Of a DNA stretch of 56,901 nt, positions 25,242 to 32,172 are shown piece by piece; within the stretch, counting starts at the first letter, position 1; each line of letters begins with the position of its first letter. The position numbers and the translations under genes are program-made. The DNA is from Gemmatimonadota bacterium. GTDB lineage: Bacteria > Gemmatimonadota > Gemmatimonadetes > Gemmatimonadales > GWC2-71-9. The stretch covers positions 1-56,901 of the forward strand of contig QHUT01000058.1 in assembly GCA_003222055.1 (NCBI GenBank). Reading direction: 5' to 3'. The notes under the pieces were generated by a model. That model was given only the letters and a program-made list of their open reading frames with translations. It was not told the DNA's origin and ran no database searches.

Positions 25242-26627
25242 TCAGATCGCCACGCGCTTCCAGCGCTCGCTGTTGAGCCACGCGTAGGACAGGCCCAGGC
25301 AGGCGACCCACCCCACGATCTCCGAGGCCCACACCACCTCGAGGGGTAGGCCGAGCAGCGGGCCGGCGCTGTACGCGGACGCGAGCATCACGACCGTGAG
25401 CACGAGCTCGATGGCGAGCGTGCTGCGCGTGTCGCCCGTTCCCATGACGGCCCCGAGCACGAGCTCGGCCGGGATCACGACGACGATCGCGAGCGCCAGC
25501 ACGCGGAGGCAGCCCGCGCCGCGTCGCAACAGATCCGGGTCGGCGGTGAAAACGGCGAGCGGCACGCCCGGGGCGACGAGCACCAGGGCGACGATCGGCA
25601 GGACGACGAGCAGCGCCCATTTCGCCGTGCGCCGCACCAGCGCACCGACCTGGGCGTCGCGCGCCTGGCCGAGCAGGTTGCTCACGGTCGTGCACACCGC
25701 CTCCGCGAGCCCACCCACCGGCAGCAGCAGCAGCGCGTACAAAGCGTGGACCACGTTCGCCACTGCGAGCGGGGCCTCACCCAGGCGCTCGAGGATCACG
25801 AAGAACGCGAACCAGCGCCCGGTGCCGAGCAGCCGCTCCAGCGCCGCGGGCCAGGCGATGGTGAGCATGAGCCGCGTGAGCTTGCGGTCGAGAGTCCGGC
25901 GCCGGAACAGCCCGAAGCGACCCGCGTCGCCGGCCGCCACGGCACCCACGGTGAAGTACAGGAAGCCGGTCATTTCCGCGAGGAGCGACCCGAACGCGGC
26001 GCCCCGTAGCCCGAGTCGCGGGAGGCCGGCGTGGCCGAAGATCAGGAGATAGTCGCACACGACGTTGGTGAGCGCGAGCGCCAGGGTCGCTCCGATCAGC
26101 AGGCGGGTCCGTCCGATACCGACGTACAGCGCGCTGTAGGCCATGTTGAGGCAGTGGAACACCGCGGCATAGGCGAGAATGCCCACGTAGGCATTCACGC
26201 CCGCGCGCACCGCGTCCGATCGGATGAGCCACGCGGTGACGTGCTGAGCGCCGAGCAGCAGGAACAGCAGCACCGCGATGGACGTGGCGACGAGCAGGCT
26301 CGCGCCGTGGAAAAAGGCGTCTCCGACCGCCTGCGGCCGCTCCTGGCCGGCCCGGCGGGCGGCGACGATCTGGATGCCGTCCGCGAGGCCGAACGTGAGA
26401 AACACCGTCACTTCGTAAATAGCCGCGCCGAGCCCCACCGCGGCCAGCTCGAGCGTGCCGAACCGCCCCAGAAACGCGGTGTCGGTCGCCTCGACGATGG
26501 TCTCGCTCAGCTCCGCGAGGATGATCGGCACGGCGATCGCCCACAACGCCCGCGCCGACGCCTCGAGCTTGAGCGACCGCGGTGCGGGGCGGGCCGGGCC
26601 TACGGCAGAGAGAGGTGGGGGCCCCAC
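25242..26627 (-). CDS. MATE-family efflux transporter
   Basis: This is a 461-residue protein with 12 expected helices. The N-lobe opens IAVPIILAELSETIVEATDTAFLGRFGTLELAAVGLGAAIYE and the C-lobe repeats the pattern (IAWPAALERLLGTGRWFAFF). Both halves carry the MATE signatures. It exports cationic or other small compounds using a sodium or proton gradient. It is encoded last in a minus-strand operon 13 bases after the arginine-dihydrolase-like gene, so the likely cargo is a product or by-product of that operon (inference). Confidence 0.9.
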   Translation of the reverse strand: MGPPPLSAVGPARPAPRSLKLEASARALWAIAVPIILAELSETIVEATDTAFLGRFGTLELAAVGLGAAIYEVTVFLTFGLADGIQIVAARRAGQERPQAVGDAFFHGASLLVATSIAVLLFLLLGAQHVTAWLIRSDAVRAGVNAYVGILAYAAVFHCLNMAYSALYVGIGRTRLLIGATLALALTNVVCDYLLIFGHAGLPRLGLRGAAFGSLLAEMTGFLYFTVGAVAAGDAGRFGLFRRRTLDRKLTRLMLTIAWPAALERLLGTGRWFAFFVILERLGEAPLAVANVVHALYALLLLPVGGLAEAVCTTVSNLLGQARDAQVGALVRRTAKWALLVVLPIVALVLVAPGVPLAVFTADPDLLRRGAGCLRVLALAIVVVIPAELVLGAVMGTGDTRSTLAIELVLTVVMLASAYSAGPLLGLPLEVVWASEIVGWVACLGLSYAWLNSERWKRVAI

Positions 26628-26640
26628 GAGGCCGCGGCGC

Positions 26641-27636
26641 CTAGGTCAGCGCGAATTCATAGGAGTGACGGTTGAGATGCAACAGCATGCAGGACAGGAG
26701 GGCGCCGGACTTGTGGTACTCGCTCAGGTTGAAGAAGCTCAGGTCGAATCCCAAACTGACGGCGATGTCCTCCAGCCGGCGATTCTTCGCGACCTCGGCG
26801 GCGTAGTCCTCCGTGCCGGCCTGGAGCTCGCTCACGTGCGAGGCGTTGAGGATCGTATTCGACAACCGCACCGAGTTACAAATCCCGGCGTAGCAGTCGT
26901 CCACGGACACGTCGATGATATTGGTGTGCCGCTCGAGCGCTCCCAGCTCTTCGCGCCCGTAGAGCTCCGTGCACACCAGGGTGTCGTCGCGGGTCACGGG
27001 GAAGACGGTGCAATCGAGATGATACAGGTAGCGGTCCGTTTCCTCGAGTTTGACGACCTGCATGTCGTAGCGCCGCTCCATCCACTCGTAGGCTGCGAGC
27101 TCCGAGCGGATGCCGTAGCCACCCGCGTAGACGTTGTCGCGCAGGTGCTTCAGCTCGGCCTCGCCCTCGAACTTGTAGGGTGGTCGGGCGGTGGTGTAGC
27201 CGAGCGACTCGAAGAAGGCCAACCCGAGCGGGGCCTCGCCCACGCGCGGCGCGGAGCAGAAGTTGGAGATGAGCGCGGTGTTCTTGTCGGGCAGGTGTTC
27301 GAGCACCATGCCGAGATTCGCGGTGAAGACCAGGTCCTGGAGCTTGCAGTCTCCCCGGCTCGGCAGCAGATACACCACCGCCTCGGACGCGACGAAGTGG
27401 TAGAGGTCGAGCCATTGCCGCATGGCCTTCCGCGCGTCGGACCCCCGGCGCTCGGTCGGCAGGTCCTCCATCCAGGGATTGTTGGCGACCTCGGTAGAGA
27501 GCGAAAATGGCACGGCCAGCAAGAACGCCGGCTTGCCGAGCTGCGTCGGGTTCAGGGGCCGGCTCTGCGGCTCGGCGAGCGCGGCGCGAGCCGGCGCGAC
27601 GACGGTCAGGGTGGCTGCGGCCTGTGCGCGTATCAC
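26641..27636 (-). CDS. Arginine dihydrolase/amidinotransferase-fold enzyme
   Basis: This is a 331-residue member of the guanidine-modifying superfamily. NNPWMEDLP is near 52-60 and VFTANLGMVL near 103-112. The acidic motif FEGEAEL lies at 157-162, the catalytic His in YHLDCTVFP (H206) and the catalytic Cys in SGALLSCMLLHLN (C316). The order and wording closely recall the N-terminal domain of cyanobacterial AgrE/ArgZ, which turns arginine into ornithine, CO2 and ammonia. Whether it acts on free or peptide-bound arginine or another guanidine is unknown. GTG start with a strong AGGAGG; overlaps the PSD-like gene stop (GTGA). Confidence 0.75.
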   Translation of the reverse strand: MIRAQAAATLTVVAPARAALAEPQSRPLNPTQLGKPAFLLAVPFSLSTEVANNPWMEDLPTERRGSDARKAMRQWLDLYHFVASEAVVYLLPSRGDCKLQDLVFTANLGMVLEHLPDKNTALISNFCSAPRVGEAPLGLAFFESLGYTTARPPYKFEGEAELKHLRDNVYAGGYGIRSELAAYEWMERRYDMQVVKLEETDRYLYHLDCTVFPVTRDDTLVCTELYGREELGALERHTNIIDVSVDDCYAGICNSVRLSNTILNASHVSELQAGTEDYAAEVAKNRRLEDIAVSLGFDLSFFNLSEYHKSGALLSCMLLHLNRHSYEFALT

Positions 27637-28370
27637 GGTGCCTCCTCTGGTGACCGGTGGGCGATGCGAACCAGCGGGTCGATCCCCGCTTCGACGTGCA
27701 CGCCCGGTTGCTGCAGCGGGCTGAACTCGAAACGCCGCGACAGCGGCACGATGAGATCGACCTGAGATCCGTAGCGGATCTGCGAAAACCGCTGGTTCTG
27801 TGCGACCGGGCGGTTCTGCTTCAGCTGGAACGGCATGATCGAATTGACGTCGTAGTCCGCGATCTGCAGGACGAAATACGACTGCCCGAGGGCCGGGGCG
27901 TACACCCGGTTGAGCATGCGCTGATTGGTGTGCAGGTAGCCGGCGGCGCCGGTGTCGAGGCGCAGCTCCTGGAACAGGCTCTTCTCCACGCCGAGCATCG
28001 GCTGGTTGTACGTGCCGATCTCCTCGAGCTCCTTGTAGGAGAGGCGTCCGGGGAACGGGATACGGTTGATGTGGACGTCCACGAACGTCATGAACACGCC
28101 GATCACCAGACTCTCGCGATCGTACGACGGATCGCGGATGGCGTCCCGCAGGGAGTAACTCTTCCCCTTGATGTCCACGATGGGCTCGTCGGGCATGACC
28201 GTCTGCTGATAGACGACGATGCCGTCGGCGGGGGAGAAGAAATAGCTTGTGTCGGTGAGGGCCGGTCGCGTGGGATCCCGAAAGAAGTATTCTTCGGCAA
28301 GCCAGCGGAGCGGCTTCTCCTTCACGGGCGTCACGTCATTGTCCACCCACTCGCGCAGACTCTTTGCCAT
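27633..28370 (-). CDS. Phosphatidylserine-decarboxylase-like pyruvoyl enzyme
   Basis: This is a 245-residue protein with PSD landmarks in order: SPADG (46-50), FVDVHINRIPFPG (97-108, with the Asp/His of the catalytic triad) and a self-cleavage site RYGSQ (G201-S202) replacing the usual LGST. Cleavage before Ser would create the pyruvoyl cofactor. There is no membrane anchor and no neighbouring phospholipid gene, so the substrate may be a small amino acid or a peptide rather than phosphatidylserine (inference). GGGAG precedes the ATG by a few bases. It is the first gene of a three-gene operon, after a 285-bp gap. Confidence 0.75.
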   Translation of the reverse strand: MAKSLREWVDNDVTPVKEKPLRWLAEEYFFRDPTRPALTDTSYFFSPADGIVVYQQTVMPDEPIVDIKGKSYSLRDAIRDPSYDRESLVIGVFMTFVDVHINRIPFPGRLSYKELEEIGTYNQPMLGVEKSLFQELRLDTGAAGYLHTNQRMLNRVYAPALGQSYFVLQIADYDVNSIMPFQLKQNRPVAQNQRFSQIRYGSQVDLIVPLSRRFEFSPLQQPGVHVEAGIDPLVRIAHRSPEEAP

Positions 28371-28655
28371 CGAACGCTCCCGACGTGGCGTGCGGCCGAG
28401 GCGGAAGCAAAAAAAGTACCAAGACGGGCGCGGTCAGTGCGGTTGCACGGTCCGGCCGATCATTTTGGTCACTTCTGGTTACGTCGGTCACGTTTTCGTT
28501 CCTGACGAGACACTCCACATCGTTGCCGCGGTGCCGCAGCGATGGCGGCGGCGAGACAGGCGGCCGCAACAGTATTGAACCCGCCGCGTGACCGACGTCA
28601 CGCGAGCCACGGTCTCGCGGCAGCGATCGTCGCTTCCCGCCGCGCGGGAGCAGCG
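28371..28655 (-). promoter_or_regulatory. Control region with palindromes upstream of the PSD-like operon
   Basis: No credible gene is found in this 285-bp gap. It holds a perfect 8-bp inverted repeat, CGCGTGAC-CGAC-GTCACGCG (28585-28604). A 12-base motif, ACGTCGGTCACG at 28481-28492, recurs inverted at 28587-28598, about 95 bases away. An extra GGTCAC half lies at 28467. This spacing suits a dimeric regulator, possibly with looping. No clear -35/-10 pair is visible. Confidence 0.45.
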
Positions 28656-29603
28656 TCACACGGCCGGTAACGAGTTCGCTTCGACGTTGACTCGGATGGT
28701 CACCTGGCGGATGCTCCGGCGCACGGGCAGGACCTTGTGCAGCCGCGCGTCGAGATAGTCCTTGAGCATGGGAGGCCGCGGCTGTCGCAGGTAGCCGTCG
28801 GGGTCGCGCCGCAGCGCCGCCGGCGCGACGACGTCCAGGGCTTCGCGCGACGGCACATGCTGCACGATGCACGGCACGTGGCTGACACCCAGGCGGCGAA
28901 GCGCGTAGGCGCGATGACTGCCGTTGTTGAGGATCAGTCGCTTTTCCACATACAGCGCGTTCAGGAAATTGGCGCTGAAGCCCACGGCGATCCCGACGAC
29001 GCCCACGACGGTACCCGGAGGCACGTGGTTGGTGATGTCGGTCTGCTCGAGGCGCATCGTGCCGAGGAAGCGCAGGTCATTCGACGGCGACACGAAGACG
29101 AAGCTGTCGTCGTGCTCCCGCGCCCACGTCGCGGGGGGCCGAGGATGGTCGTAGGCGAGACACGCGCGGAAAATCTGCTCACGATCGGGCGCCGGGCCGA
29201 GCGTCCGCTCGAGCCGCCGGGCAAAGGCCAAATCGATGTGCTTCTGATAGACCACCAAGCGATCCAGTTCGACCAGCGCGACGTCCGTGGGCACGGTGTT
29301 GAACCCGTAGCGCACCAGAGGATCCTTCAGCAGCTCCATCAGGAGTCCCTCGTACTCCGGCCCGAGCGGCGCCATGGGCGGATCGTCGGCGCACCCGGCT
29401 TCCTTCGCCGCCAGCTGTCTCACGACCGCGTGAGCGGCGTGCCACTCGTCCGTCAGCGTCCCCTTGCCGGGTTGGGTCGTGGCGTGAGTCCGTACGTAGC
29501 GCAGGAACTCACGCAGCGTGGGCCGCCCGGTCAGGTACAGGCATTCGTCCACGGCCCGCCCCTCGGGGGGCGCCGCTTGCTCGGGCCTGACGCTCACCAC
29601 CAT
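28656..29603 (-). CDS. ParB/Srx-like domain protein of unknown function
   Basis: This is a 315-residue protein. The only motif I can place is KRLILNNGSHRAYALRRLGV (221-240), which looks like the 'GHHR..AL..LG' core of ParB/sulfiredoxin-like nucleotide-binding folds. A VVYQKHIDL segment (117-125) may be the matching earlier strand. The N-terminal half is not recognised. The ATG overlaps the 3' end of the M50-HlyD gene by ten bases, so it is translationally coupled to it. A ParB-like CTPase or a kinase-like role in peptide tailoring are guesses only. Confidence 0.65.
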   Translation of the reverse strand: MVVSVRPEQAAPPEGRAVDECLYLTGRPTLREFLRYVRTHATTQPGKGTLTDEWHAAHAVVRQLAAKEAGCADDPPMAPLGPEYEGLLMELLKDPLVRYGFNTVPTDVALVELDRLVVYQKHIDLAFARRLERTLGPAPDREQIFRACLAYDHPRPPATWAREHDDSFVFVSPSNDLRFLGTMRLEQTDITNHVPPGTVVGVVGIAVGFSANFLNALYVEKRLILNNGSHRAYALRRLGVSHVPCIVQHVPSREALDVVAPAALRRDPDGYLRQPRPPMLKDYLDARLHKVLPVRRSIRQVTIRVNVEANSLPAV

Positions 29604-31948
29604 GACCAGAGGTTCACTTTGAGGGTGAGGGCCAAGCGGCGCAGCACGACGTCGACGATCCGCAGTCGATCGCCGAACACCTTTGCTTCGCCGCTCATTC
29701 CCGGCTTCAAGAGAAGCGAATCGTTGTCGATCTCCGTGATGACGAGGATCGACCGGGGACTCCTCGCGGCCGCCGACGCGCTTTCGGTCGGTGAGGGACC
29801 GGCGTCCGCACTGGTCGCGATCGCGGTCACCACGCCGTGGAAGGTGCGATTGGGATACGCCCTCGCCTTCAGCGCCACAGGCTCCCCTACGCGCACGGCG
29901 GCGATCTCCCGCTCCGGCACCGTCACCTCGACGGTGAGCCGTTTCAGGTCGTACACCTTCGCGAGCAGGCTGCCCTGCTGCACGTTTTGGCCCGCCAAGT
30001 CGGCCAGTTCCCGGGCCGGGGTGGCGACGATGCCCGAGACCGGGCTGCGCACCTCCACCTGTCGCAGCTCGGTCTCGAGGTAACCGCGCTGCGCCTCGAG
30101 GCCGGCAAGCTCCGCCCTCGCCTGCTCGACCTCCTCGGGGCGGGACCCGTGCAGCACCGCCGCAAGCCGGCGGCTCGCCTCGGCTTCGTCATGTTCGGCC
30201 GTGGCGGCTTGCTCCTCGGAGTTCTCGAGATCGATCCGAGTGAGGACGCCGCTGTCGGCGAGCTGCTGGTTCCGGCTCAACCGGGCGCGGGCGTACTGGA
30301 GGCGCGTGCGGGCCTGCGCCACCGCGGTGCGGGCCAGCGCGATCGAGTCGGCGGTGGGACCGGTCTCGAGCATCCGCAAGCGAGCCCGTGTCTCTCGGAT
30401 CTGCGCGTTGACCTTCGCGAGGTCCGTGCGATGTGCGCGGTCGGACAGGCGGGCCACGAGGTCCCCGGCCCGCACCTCGTTCCCTTCGGTGACGTATACC
30501 TGCTCGACCAGTCCGTCGGTCTCGGTGCGGACGTCCGCATTGCGCACCGGCAGGATGGAGAAGGGTCCCGCGACCCGGAGCCGGGCGTGTCCGAACACGC
30601 CGAGCACGCCCGCCCCGGCGGCCAGGACGAGCCCCGTGAGGGCGCGCTTGCGACGCCGGCGGCGGTGCGGATTGGGAGGGCGCGACGGCCCATCGGAGGA
30701 CGTCGCGGGCGGGCTCGACTCCTCGTCGGCGGGATCGTCGTCGCCGTCGCCGTCCCAATCGTCATCGTCCGAGCCCGTGCCGAAGAGCTTGCGGGCCCGG
30801 CGGCGGACCTTGGCGCTGAGCAGGCCGACGAACGCCGCCAGAGCGAAGGGCTGACCGCCGGCCATCAGGAAGCCCATCGTCTTGACGCTCGCCACCGCCA
30901 GCAATCCCAGCGACGGCACGGCCGCCAGCAGCCCGTATGCAAGGTACAGGCGGCGCTCGCGGGGCGTCACCTCGGCCATGGGCGACGTGACTCCGCCCCA
31001 CAGCCGCCGCATGAGGCCTCCAACATAGCGAAACGATCTCCTGCGGAGGTTGGGGGCGTCGAGATAGTCGCTCAACAGGTAATAGCCGTCGAGCTTGAGC
31101 AACGGACTGAAGTTCAGGAGCGTCTTCACGCCCGAACCCGCCATCACGATCAGCGCCACATAATTCGCCCAGATGTCCACGTCCGTCAGGCGCCAGGTGA
31201 ACACCGCTAGCGCCCAGAGAGTGAGCTCGAAGTACGGCCCGGCGAACCCTACCCACAGTCGCTTCGACTTCTCTGGAAACAGCCATGCGTCGCTCACATT
31301 GCAATAGAAGGCGGGCTGCAGATAGATCAGCATGAAGCCGAGCTCGTGCACTTCCCCGCCGAAGTGCTTGCAGGTGACACCGTGCGCGAATTCATGCGCG
31401 GACGCGGCGATAAACGTGATTGCCAGGAACGGCGGGATCGCCTCGAGCCGGTATAGTCGCGACAAGTCCTGTGTGATGTCGCTCCAGTTCGCGACCGCCG
31501 TACCCACCGCCGCGGTAACAAGGGCGGCGCAAAGGAGGCAGAAATGAGGCGTGTAGCAGACCCGCAGGGCGCGCGCGAGTCGGTCGAACAAGCGGTTCGG
31601 ATCCGCCACCTTGAAGCGGAGGTAGAGCAGACTTCCGCGCACACGGCGGTCGCGCCGAGCGGAGCCGGCCGCCGCCGCGTTTTCCAGCAGGCCCGCCTTG
31701 GCGAGACGGTGGAGGAAGGCCCCCAGACGCTCCGGGGCAAGCGCCCCGCCGAAACGCGCTTCCGTCCGCTGCCGGATAATCTCGAGCGGCGTCTCGCCGT
31801 CGCACTGCTGCGTGATGAAATGCTCGACGTCGCCGAAACGGAAGAAGTCGCCGGTGCGCGCGTTCTTTACGATCGCGACGGTGCCATCCGCTGTGCGCAG
31901 CTCGCGGACGATCAAGTCCCGCCGCAGCCGTGGCGCCGCCGGGCTCAC
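29594..31948 (-). CDS. PqqD-like / M50 metalloprotease / HlyD fusion membrane protein
   Basis: This is a 784-residue fusion. Residues 10-95 form a PqqD/winged-helix-like domain (VKNARTGDFFRFGDVEHFI...LLENA). Membrane helices then carry an M50 site-2-protease motif HEFAH (185-189) and the partner NFSPLLKLDGYY (279-290). A very acidic linker (DDDDWDGDGDDD) and a basic stretch precede an anchor helix near 430 and a HlyD adaptor with biotinyl-lipoyl halves and coiled coil. Such fusions accompany ribosomally made peptides and are thought to process or export them. The start GTG 31948 is chosen because the longer frame crosses the peptide gene and hairpin upstream. Confidence 0.8.
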   Translation of the reverse strand: MSPAAPRLRRDLIVRELRTADGTVAIVKNARTGDFFRFGDVEHFITQQCDGETPLEIIRQRTEARFGGALAPERLGAFLHRLAKAGLLENAAAAGSARRDRRVRGSLLYLRFKVADPNRLFDRLARALRVCYTPHFCLLCAALVTAAVGTAVANWSDITQDLSRLYRLEAIPPFLAITFIAASAHEFAHGVTCKHFGGEVHELGFMLIYLQPAFYCNVSDAWLFPEKSKRLWVGFAGPYFELTLWALAVFTWRLTDVDIWANYVALIVMAGSGVKTLLNFSPLLKLDGYYLLSDYLDAPNLRRRSFRYVGGLMRRLWGGVTSPMAEVTPRERRLYLAYGLLAAVPSLGLLAVASVKTMGFLMAGGQPFALAAFVGLLSAKVRRRARKLFGTGSDDDDWDGDGDDDPADEESSPPATSSDGPSRPPNPHRRRRRKRALTGLVLAAGAGVLGVFGHARLRVAGPFSILPVRNADVRTETDGLVEQVYVTEGNEVRAGDLVARLSDRAHRTDLAKVNAQIRETRARLRMLETGPTADSIALARTAVAQARTRLQYARARLSRNQQLADSGVLTRIDLENSEEQAATAEHDEAEASRRLAAVLHGSRPEEVEQARAELAGLEAQRGYLETELRQVEVRSPVSGIVATPARELADLAGQNVQQGSLLAKVYDLKRLTVEVTVPEREIAAVRVGEPVALKARAYPNRTFHGVVTAIATSADAGPSPTESASAAARSPRSILVITEIDNDSLLLKPGMSGEAKVFGDRLRIVDVVLRRLALTLKVNLWSWW

Positions 31949-31971
31949 GGCGCGACTGGGACGATGAGAAA

Positions 31972-31996
31972 GGCCGCCGGAAAGTTTCCGACGGCC
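31972..31996 (-). terminator. Hairpin between peptide gene and M50-HlyD gene
   Basis: GGCCGTCGGAAA and TTTCCGGCGGCC pair with one mismatch across a tiny loop, followed on the minus strand by TTTCTC. It lies 29 bases after the peptide stop and 23 before the M50-HlyD start. This is typical of an attenuator that keeps peptide mRNA in excess over the downstream genes. Confidence 0.6.
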
Positions 31997-32025
31997 TTCC
32001 CAACACTTCCCATCGAGCGCCGCGG

Positions 32026-32160
32026 TTAGTCGCCGCTGCTGTGGGAGTGGGTGTCGTGGGTTTCGCCAAGATCGACACCGACGCCGATCGAGATACCCCC
32101 GACGAGATCCGGTGCAATCCGCTGCTCGAGTTTCTCGAGCGCAGGGTTCAGGTGCTTCAT
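32026..32160 (-). CDS. Putative ribosomal peptide precursor, 44 aa
   Basis: This short frame is preceded by GGAGG (32172-32168) seven bases before the ATG, one of the best ribosome sites in the window. The N-terminal half is leader-like and amphipathic, with LEQRIAP at 11-17 and a double glycine at 21-22. It is followed by a glycine/hydrophobic stretch (ISIGVGVDLGE, 23-33) and a His/Ser/Asp tail with three His alternating with T/S (35-40). Leader, GG and small core, the downstream hairpin and the M50-HlyD gene together suggest a modified or exported peptide. The class is not one I can name. Confidence 0.65.
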   Translation of the reverse strand: MKHLNPALEKLEQRIAPDLVGGISIGVGVDLGETHDTHSHSSGD

Positions 32161-32167
32161 GATGACA

Positions 32168-32172
32168 CCTCC
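32168..32172 (-). promoter_or_regulatory. Ribosome binding site of the peptide gene
   Basis: GGAGG on the minus strand with a seven-base spacer decides the start of the 44-residue peptide. The upstream interval to 32410 must hold its promoter and that of the divergent deacetylase gene; no convincing -35/-10 boxes are seen. Confidence 0.65.

Follow-up and report, generated by a model that had tools for sequence, protein, structure and literature searches.

A candidate RiPP-like peptide maturation and export cassette and its neighbouring decarboxylase-hydrolase genes in a Gemmatimonadota contig

A recurrent peptide upstream of a protease-adaptor fusion

The window analyzed here is the whole 56,901-nucleotide stretch from contig QHUT01000058.1 of a Gemmatimonadota bacterium (assembly GCA_003222055.1; 3.69 Mb, 173 contigs), and the locus in question lies on its minus strand. 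In order of transcription, it consists of a short peptide gene, a hairpin, a gene for a fusion of PqqD-like, M50 and HlyD parts, a ParB-like gene, a gap of 285 nt, and genes for a phosphatidylserine decarboxylase (PSD)-like enzyme, a guanidine hydrolase, and a MATE exporter. A preliminary description, made from the sequence alone, named these features and grouped them, in two tightly coupled blocks, as one candidate peptide-modification locus resembling those of ribosomally synthesized and post-translationally modified peptides (RiPPs). All of the features were found on the minus strand where it had placed them. The coupling holds within the blocks, since the ParB-like gene overlaps the end of the fusion gene by 10 nt and the hydrolase gene overlaps the PSD gene by 4 nt, but not between them, as the 285-nt gap carries a conserved, regulatory-looking sequence of its own. 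Block 1 comprises the following features:

32026..32160, minus strand: precursor-like peptide gene, 44 aa, with a putative leader at residues 1–17 (...EKLEQRIAP) and a variable His/Asp/Ser/Thr-rich tail at residues 18–44
31961..32006, minus strand: conserved attenuator- or terminator-like hairpin with a weak T-tract between the peptide and protease genes (z = −3.4 in the window)
29594..31948, minus strand: 784-aa fusion of a PqqD-like part (of the RiPP recognition element, RRE, type), an M50 intramembrane metalloprotease and an HlyD/membrane-fusion protein (NF041824, HlyD_D23 and PqqD matches)
28656..29603, minus strand: ParB/sulfiredoxin (Srx)-fold-like protein, 315 aa, translationally coupled to the fusion (short motif and weak fold match)

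The peptide of the window, MKHLNPALEKLEQRIAPDLVGGISIGVGVDLGETHDTHSHSSGD, has a good ribosome-binding site (GGAGG) ahead of its ATG, and its frame is under purifying selection, with a ratio of nonsynonymous to synonymous divergence (dN/dS) of 0.15–0.19 against close relatives, a value drawn from a short frame. Similar peptides are encoded directly upstream of homologous fusion genes in four genomes from its own genus or nearby ones (G009, G048, G001, and G378) and at one further locus, L068; examples are MKHLYPSLEKLEERIAPDLVGGISIGISVGDDEDHDHHHHHDDD in G009 and MKHLNLELEKLEERIATWAVPMGGGGSGSKGSKSHGS... in G001. A profile scan with the fusion alignment over 84,980 species yielded 80 loci, many of them from Acidobacteria, Verrucomicrobia, Nitrospirae, Rokubacteria, Planctomycetes, and Proteobacteria, among others. 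Of the 45 loci with enough upstream sequence, 36 encode peptides with the motif LE.R[IV][AV]P in the 1.5 kb ahead of the fusion gene. These loci thus show the general pattern of RiPP systems, an encoded precursor with a constant LE[EQ]RIAP leader and variable tails beside processing enzymes, and the RiPP-like reading, which the lack of a conserved upstream peptide frame in relatives would have undone, is not refuted. Counts of LE.R[IV][AV]P come to 53 in the 65.7 kb upstream of M50-HlyD genes and to four in the 1298 strand-kb that make up the rest of these loci, which makes the motif about 260-fold denser upstream. Several loci encode four or five tandem peptides with differing tails. In 11 whole genomes, all matches to LE[EQP]RIAP were at M50-HlyD loci, counting one at a contig end as the broken-off start of L083, a locus of the same genome that is cut off at its fusion gene by the start of the contig; elsewhere in these genomes only three LE[GL]RIAP matches were found. 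A general secretion tag for large proteins is not supported by these whole-genome scans.

The motif also has a second architecture. In a more distant set of Gemmatimonadota loci (L036–L051), genes for a GAF-HlyD protein, a lipoprotein-like adaptor and a PqqD-M50-HlyD protein are accompanied by one to three LEERIAP peptides each, which have another, longer leader (I.LT.EQK..I...TGK.AEA.EL) and only a few residues past the motif. Because these loci keep LEERIAP with a different leader and nearly no tail, the motif is tied to the protease rather than to one kind of tail. No NCBIfam family was matched by the window peptide, the long-leader peptides or other LEERIAP sequences. The precursors end in SSGD, DDD, HHSS, or SKSC, and many tails are of low complexity (SKSHKS, GYEGQPGNQ, and D/H runs). 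Tandem arrays of LE[EQAP]RIAP peptides at five loci (L121, L087, L082, L091, and L100) have near-identical tails (e.g., NPGNNNPPLNNTNNPGNEGTGGQVSTGG) across different phyla, which suggests that single peptide genes may be exchanged horizontally.

The fusion protein joins its parts in one chain. The first 90 residues give a weak PqqD match (E 0.04 for the window protein, and 0.0016 for the homologue from Pseudogulbenkiania), as do those of several other homologues, all below the cut-off, and this region falls within a match of residues 19–377 to NF041824, the daptide protease E family (4e-65, 220 bits, with a cut-off of 300 bits). Leader-binding RRE or PqqD-like domains occur in about half of the prokaryotic RiPP classes. 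The metalloprotease motifs HEFAH and LDGYY are present and conserved in homologues, and a membrane-fusion adaptor makes up the C-terminal half (HlyD_D23, 3e-18). TolC-type outer-membrane efflux protein genes were found at 12 loci of the relatives' set, in several cases as immediate neighbours of the fusion gene.

Loci of several phyla share a hairpin, with the stem consensus GAAGGYCGCNGG...CCNGCGGCCTTC, that follows the last peptide gene and precedes the fusion gene. In a comparison of 18 sequences, compensatory changes affect seven of its 14 pairs. A covariance model also matches at this position; many of the sites that it recovers had gone into its construction. Since the T-tracts are weak, the hairpin may be an attenuator or a transcript-stabilizing element that raises the peptide above the enzyme. 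An Rfam search of the 20–36 kb region gave no matches, and sigma-70-like promoters were looked for and not found.

The ParB-like partner and tail composition

A recurrent partner of the fusion gene is the ParB-like gene, a homologue of which adjoins it at 16 genome-contig loci as well as in G048 (as a second copy) and G378, in Acidobacteria, Verrucomicrobia, Ignavibacteriales, Nitrospirae, Rokubacteria, and Gemmatimonadota. The motif NNGSHRAYALR is kept across 18 homologues. The support for the "ParB-like" label given earlier is the short GSHR motif within it, together with a weak similarity of fold; the window protein has no Pfam match and no sequence match in the PDB. Its AlphaFold model (pLDDT 84.5) matches the folds of ParB, Noc, PadC, sulfiredoxin, SbnI, and free serine kinases, all weakly, with a best E of 0.05; the top 16 PDB matches (E ≥ 0.05) include the Pyrococcus conserved protein 1vk1, and the TM score to human Srx, normalized by target, is 0.61. 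In SerK, SbnI, and Srx, the ParB/Srx fold is the ATP-binding module of enzymes (PMC12704722). The protein studied here shares with them a GxHR-type motif and a weak structural match to this nucleoside triphosphate (NTP)-using fold (PMC12704722), but it has no detectable sequence homology to them and has a long N-terminal helical part. At four planctomycete PqqD-M50-HlyD loci (L102, L105, L106, and L108), LEDRI[AV]PS peptides with long, Ser/Lys-rich GSSKKH-like repeats stand beside a small conserved "DG[NH]HRAARCL" protein. These small "NHRAA" proteins were considered as ParB/Srx homologues on account of the similar motif, and rejected on a profile comparison (probability 1.8%) and a low-confidence fold.

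The presence of the ParB-like gene goes along with the composition of the tails. The mean fraction of Ser and Thr was 0.29 at 17 loci with the gene versus 0.11 at 14 loci without it (p = 2e-6, with no correction for kinship), and three of three independent, well-supported tree contrasts agree with the association. In G009, which lacks the ParB-like gene, the tail is DDEDHDHHHHHDDD, and the terminal Ser/Thr of its relatives are replaced by Asp and His. Because ParB loci have Ser/Thr-rich tails and G009, without ParB, has lost the terminal Ser/Thr, we hypothesize that the ParB-like protein may phosphorylate Ser/Thr of the tail or carry out a similar NTP-dependent transfer. An acidic-tailed locus without the ParB-like gene, L103, was rejected as a second contrast to L094, as it has also lost the HlyD half and is a decayed locus.

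Other tailoring-type enzymes also occur with particular tails. Tails of the GYEGQPGNQ type accompany 2-oxoglutarate (2OG)-Fe(II) oxygenases that are 74% identical in a betaproteobacterium and an acidobacterium. The isolate Pseudogulbenkiania subflava DSM 22618 (L098:9300–13400) encodes two LEERIA[PS] peptides with GYEG[QH]PGNQ repeats, the M50-HlyD fusion and a downstream oxygenase of this kind, and the same type of tail, with the oxygenase 74% identical to that of the isolate, is found at L107 in an acidobacterial metagenome-assembled genome (MAG). FemAB-like transferases accompany some Lys/Ser or Gly/Ser tails (L071, L088, and L101). In G001 (L033:9000–15200), a FemAB-like transferase gene is flanked by two LEER[IL]A peptides and followed by the fusion gene, a ParB-like gene, and a Ser/Thr-kinase-like gene.

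A proposed maturation and export pathway, or possibly an unmodified peptide

With moderate confidence, we read block 1 (32160–28656) as a member of a widespread and apparently undescribed RiPP-like family for peptide maturation and export, with a constant leader and tail-specific tailoring, next to which block 2 is a separate operon. This reading draws on the gene identities, the conservation of the motif and the hairpin, the linkage of the ParB-like gene, the correlation of tails with enzymes, and the separate histories of the two blocks (described below). In the mechanism that we propose, the PqqD-like domain of the fusion would recognize and bind residues 1–17, ending in EKLE[EQ]RIAP, as the leader, and the hairpin past the peptide gene would raise the yield of peptide over that of enzyme. 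The tail after the proline would be the cargo. The coupled ParB/Srx-fold protein would modify it in the cytoplasm, most likely through NTP-dependent transfer to Ser/Thr, such as phosphorylation or nucleotidylation. The M50 domain would next cleave close to IAP within the membrane, freeing the tail from its leader, and the HlyD portion would pass the tail to an outer-membrane channel.

Several points weigh against this reading. The PqqD domain is a sub-threshold match, and the ParB-like assignment comes from the short GSHR motif and a weak similarity of fold. The association of the ParB-like gene with the tails is not significant after kinship is taken into account (three pairs, p 0.25), and the contrast test is further weakened by the decayed locus L103, which is still among the 14 loci without the gene and perhaps in the three tree contrasts. 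G009 keeps the peptide and the fusion without the ParB-like gene, which is thus not universal. A dedicated pump, by which the tail would cross the inner membrane, is not encoded. Finally, no peptide product is known, and an unmodified secreted peptide would fit much of the data.

This last possibility, which we regard as unlikely but as the alternative that survives best, takes the LE[EQ]RIAP motif as a secretion or processing tag, the cassette as a device solely for the cleavage and export of short peptides of low complexity that bind metals or surfaces, and the ParB-like protein as a regulator. In its favour are the low complexity of the tails and the observation that no enzyme part other than M50 and HlyD is universal. 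Against it stand the PqqD/RRE-like domain, the coupling of the ParB-like gene to the fusion gene and its correlation with Ser/Thr-rich tails, and the alternative tailoring-type enzymes (2OG oxygenase and FemAB) at other loci. A more specific form of the maturation and export reading, which we hold only tentatively and well short of even confidence, is that the LE[EQ]RIAP peptides constitute a RiPP class of their own, undescribed so far and spread across phyla, with the RRE-M50-HlyD fusion as its basis and with interchangeable, tail-specific tailoring enzymes, in which the ParB/Srx-fold protein acts as an NTP-dependent peptide Ser/Thr kinase or nucleotidyltransferase. We know of no RiPP enzyme in such a role.

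Block 2 and the relation to known systems

Downstream of the ParB-like gene lies block 2, with the following features:

28371..28655, minus strand: intergenic control region with operator-like sequences, conserved upstream of the PSD gene in the window, L068 and L069
27633..28370, minus strand: PSD-like pyruvoyl-dependent decarboxylase (PF02666, 5e-24)
26641..27636, minus strand: ArgZ/AgrE-like guanidine hydrolase (NF052232, 5e-26, below cut-off; PDB Alr4995/Sll1336)
25242..26627, minus strand: MATE family exporter (PF01554, 4e-40; TIGR00797 above cut-off)

The decarboxylase belongs to the phosphatidylserine decarboxylase family by its PF02666 match and its serine autocleavage site; it has the motifs FSPADG and DVHINR and, at the LGST-type position, an autocleavage-type YGSQ that is invariant in three homologues. 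The closest solved structures to the hydrolase are Alr4995/Sll1336 (5e-19), and with 91.6 bits against NF052232 (arginine dihydrolase; cut-off 450), it is a distant homologue only. It resembles ArgZ/AgrE in the N-terminal hydrolase domain but has no ornithine cyclodeaminase half, and its partner is a PSD-like decarboxylase; a hydrolase homologue in G265 proved to be part of an ordinary AgrE-type locus. ArgZ-like hydrolases convert arginine to ornithine, and the substrates that pyruvoyl enzymes of the PSD type decarboxylate are alpha-amino acids or serine phosphodiesters. Given this family chemistry, the simplest reading is that block 2 probably makes and exports an arginine-derived amine, by conversion of arginine to ornithine and subsequent decarboxylation.

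Close homologues of the PSD and hydrolase occur in two of 101 relatives, the window itself and G009, and otherwise only at L068; they are absent from every other M50-HlyD or ParB locus examined. G009 is a same-genus genome (locus L069, QHUU01000095) deposited as a Gemmatimonadetes soil MAG, whose PSD is 97% identical to that of the window (91% for L068) and which lacks the MATE gene. L068 (VAWH01000008.1) holds the entire locus in the same order, with 83–94% identity; it is labelled an Actinobacteria MAG yet is a near neighbour of the window, and is thus probably misbinned. Searches of plasmids with tblastn returned distant, ordinary homologues only (PSD beside pssA, and dimethylargininases), and no PSD-hydrolase pair. 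The two blocks are therefore usually unlinked, occurring together at three closely related syntenic loci.

The preliminary description had joined all five proteins in one pathway, in which the PSD and the arginine hydrolase would tailor the peptide and the MATE protein would export it. Both blocks lie on one strand, every close PSD or hydrolase homologue in the sampled genomes neighbours a peptide/M50-HlyD locus, and L068 keeps the complete gene order. We nevertheless judge a single pathway improbable, because of the rare linkage, the upstream region of the PSD's own, the opposite divergence of the blocks, and a core without arginine. The operator-like palindrome CGTGACGTCGGTCACG lies at 28587–28602, with a partial second copy at 28477–28492 (three matches in the window versus 0.38 expected), and the region upstream of the PSD gene with the palindrome CGTGACGTCSGTCACG is conserved in the window, L068, and L069 regardless of the gene ahead of it; in G009, it is the fusion gene that precedes the PSD. 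The synonymous divergence (dS) of the window in block 1 is 0.11–0.24 versus L068 and 0.78–1.55 versus G009, while in block 2 and both outer flanks it is 0.41–0.60 and 0.17–0.33, respectively. Block 2 thus follows the chromosomal background, and these opposite patterns indicate that block 1 was exchanged as a cassette independently of it. The peptide tails of the window, L068, and G009 contain no Arg or Lys, and the guanidine hydrolase therefore has no substrate in the core. Lastly, G009 lacks MATE and ParB yet keeps the PSD and hydrolase. We take block 2 as probably a neighbouring, separately controlled operon. What stands of the RiPP-like proposal is block 1, as the peptide, the fusion, and the ParB-like gene recur together in relatives, and what falls, on the data at hand, is the pathway of five proteins, of which the PSD and hydrolase co-occur with a LEQRIAP-type peptide at three loci only.

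With regard to known systems, the nearest are the daptides (Microbacterium MpaA/MpaP), in whose precursors a leader motif, ELExMEAP, is bound by an RRE, and an RRE-M50 protease, MpaP, removes the leader (PMC10036551). The short precursor with ELE[EQ]RIAP is strikingly similar, and the M50 intramembrane protease with its putative RRE is related (NF041824, below its cut-off, as above); here, however, the protease is fused to HlyD and has a ParB-like partner. A daptide locus, at which the C-terminus of the peptide is converted to an amine, can be set aside as extremely improbable in spite of the related protease and similar leader motif, as the hallmark oxidative decarboxylase, aminotransferase, and methyltransferase are missing from the locus genes and the precursors have no C-terminal Thr (they end in GD, DDD, SS, or KSC). 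In epipeptides (YydFGHIJ/EpeXEP and LiaK), an M50 protease has been proposed to cleave and export the RiPP (PMC10885120). The cassette likewise has an M50 protease, with a weak NF058609 match (7e-7; 29 bits versus a cut-off of 225), but it differs in its HlyD fusion, in a precursor that is not YydF-like, and in having no radical SAM epimerase gene among the genes described here. The cassette thus bears the genomic marks of a RiPP system and fails the defining tests for daptides and epipeptides. In the open-access papers searched, no description of LEERIAP peptides, M50 + HlyD RiPPs or a PSD + RiPP pairing was found, which is not proof of novelty.

If the reading of block 1 is true, a large family for peptide maturation and export has gone unnoticed in uncultured soil phyla, and at least one isolate, P. 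subflava DSM 22618, carries the cassette. The pairing of the cassette with arginine and decarboxylase chemistry is corrected here. With a constant leader, variable tails, and swappable tailoring genes, the family would be a natural test bed for RRE-guided chemistry, and it would point to a possible role of the ParB fold in peptide modification.

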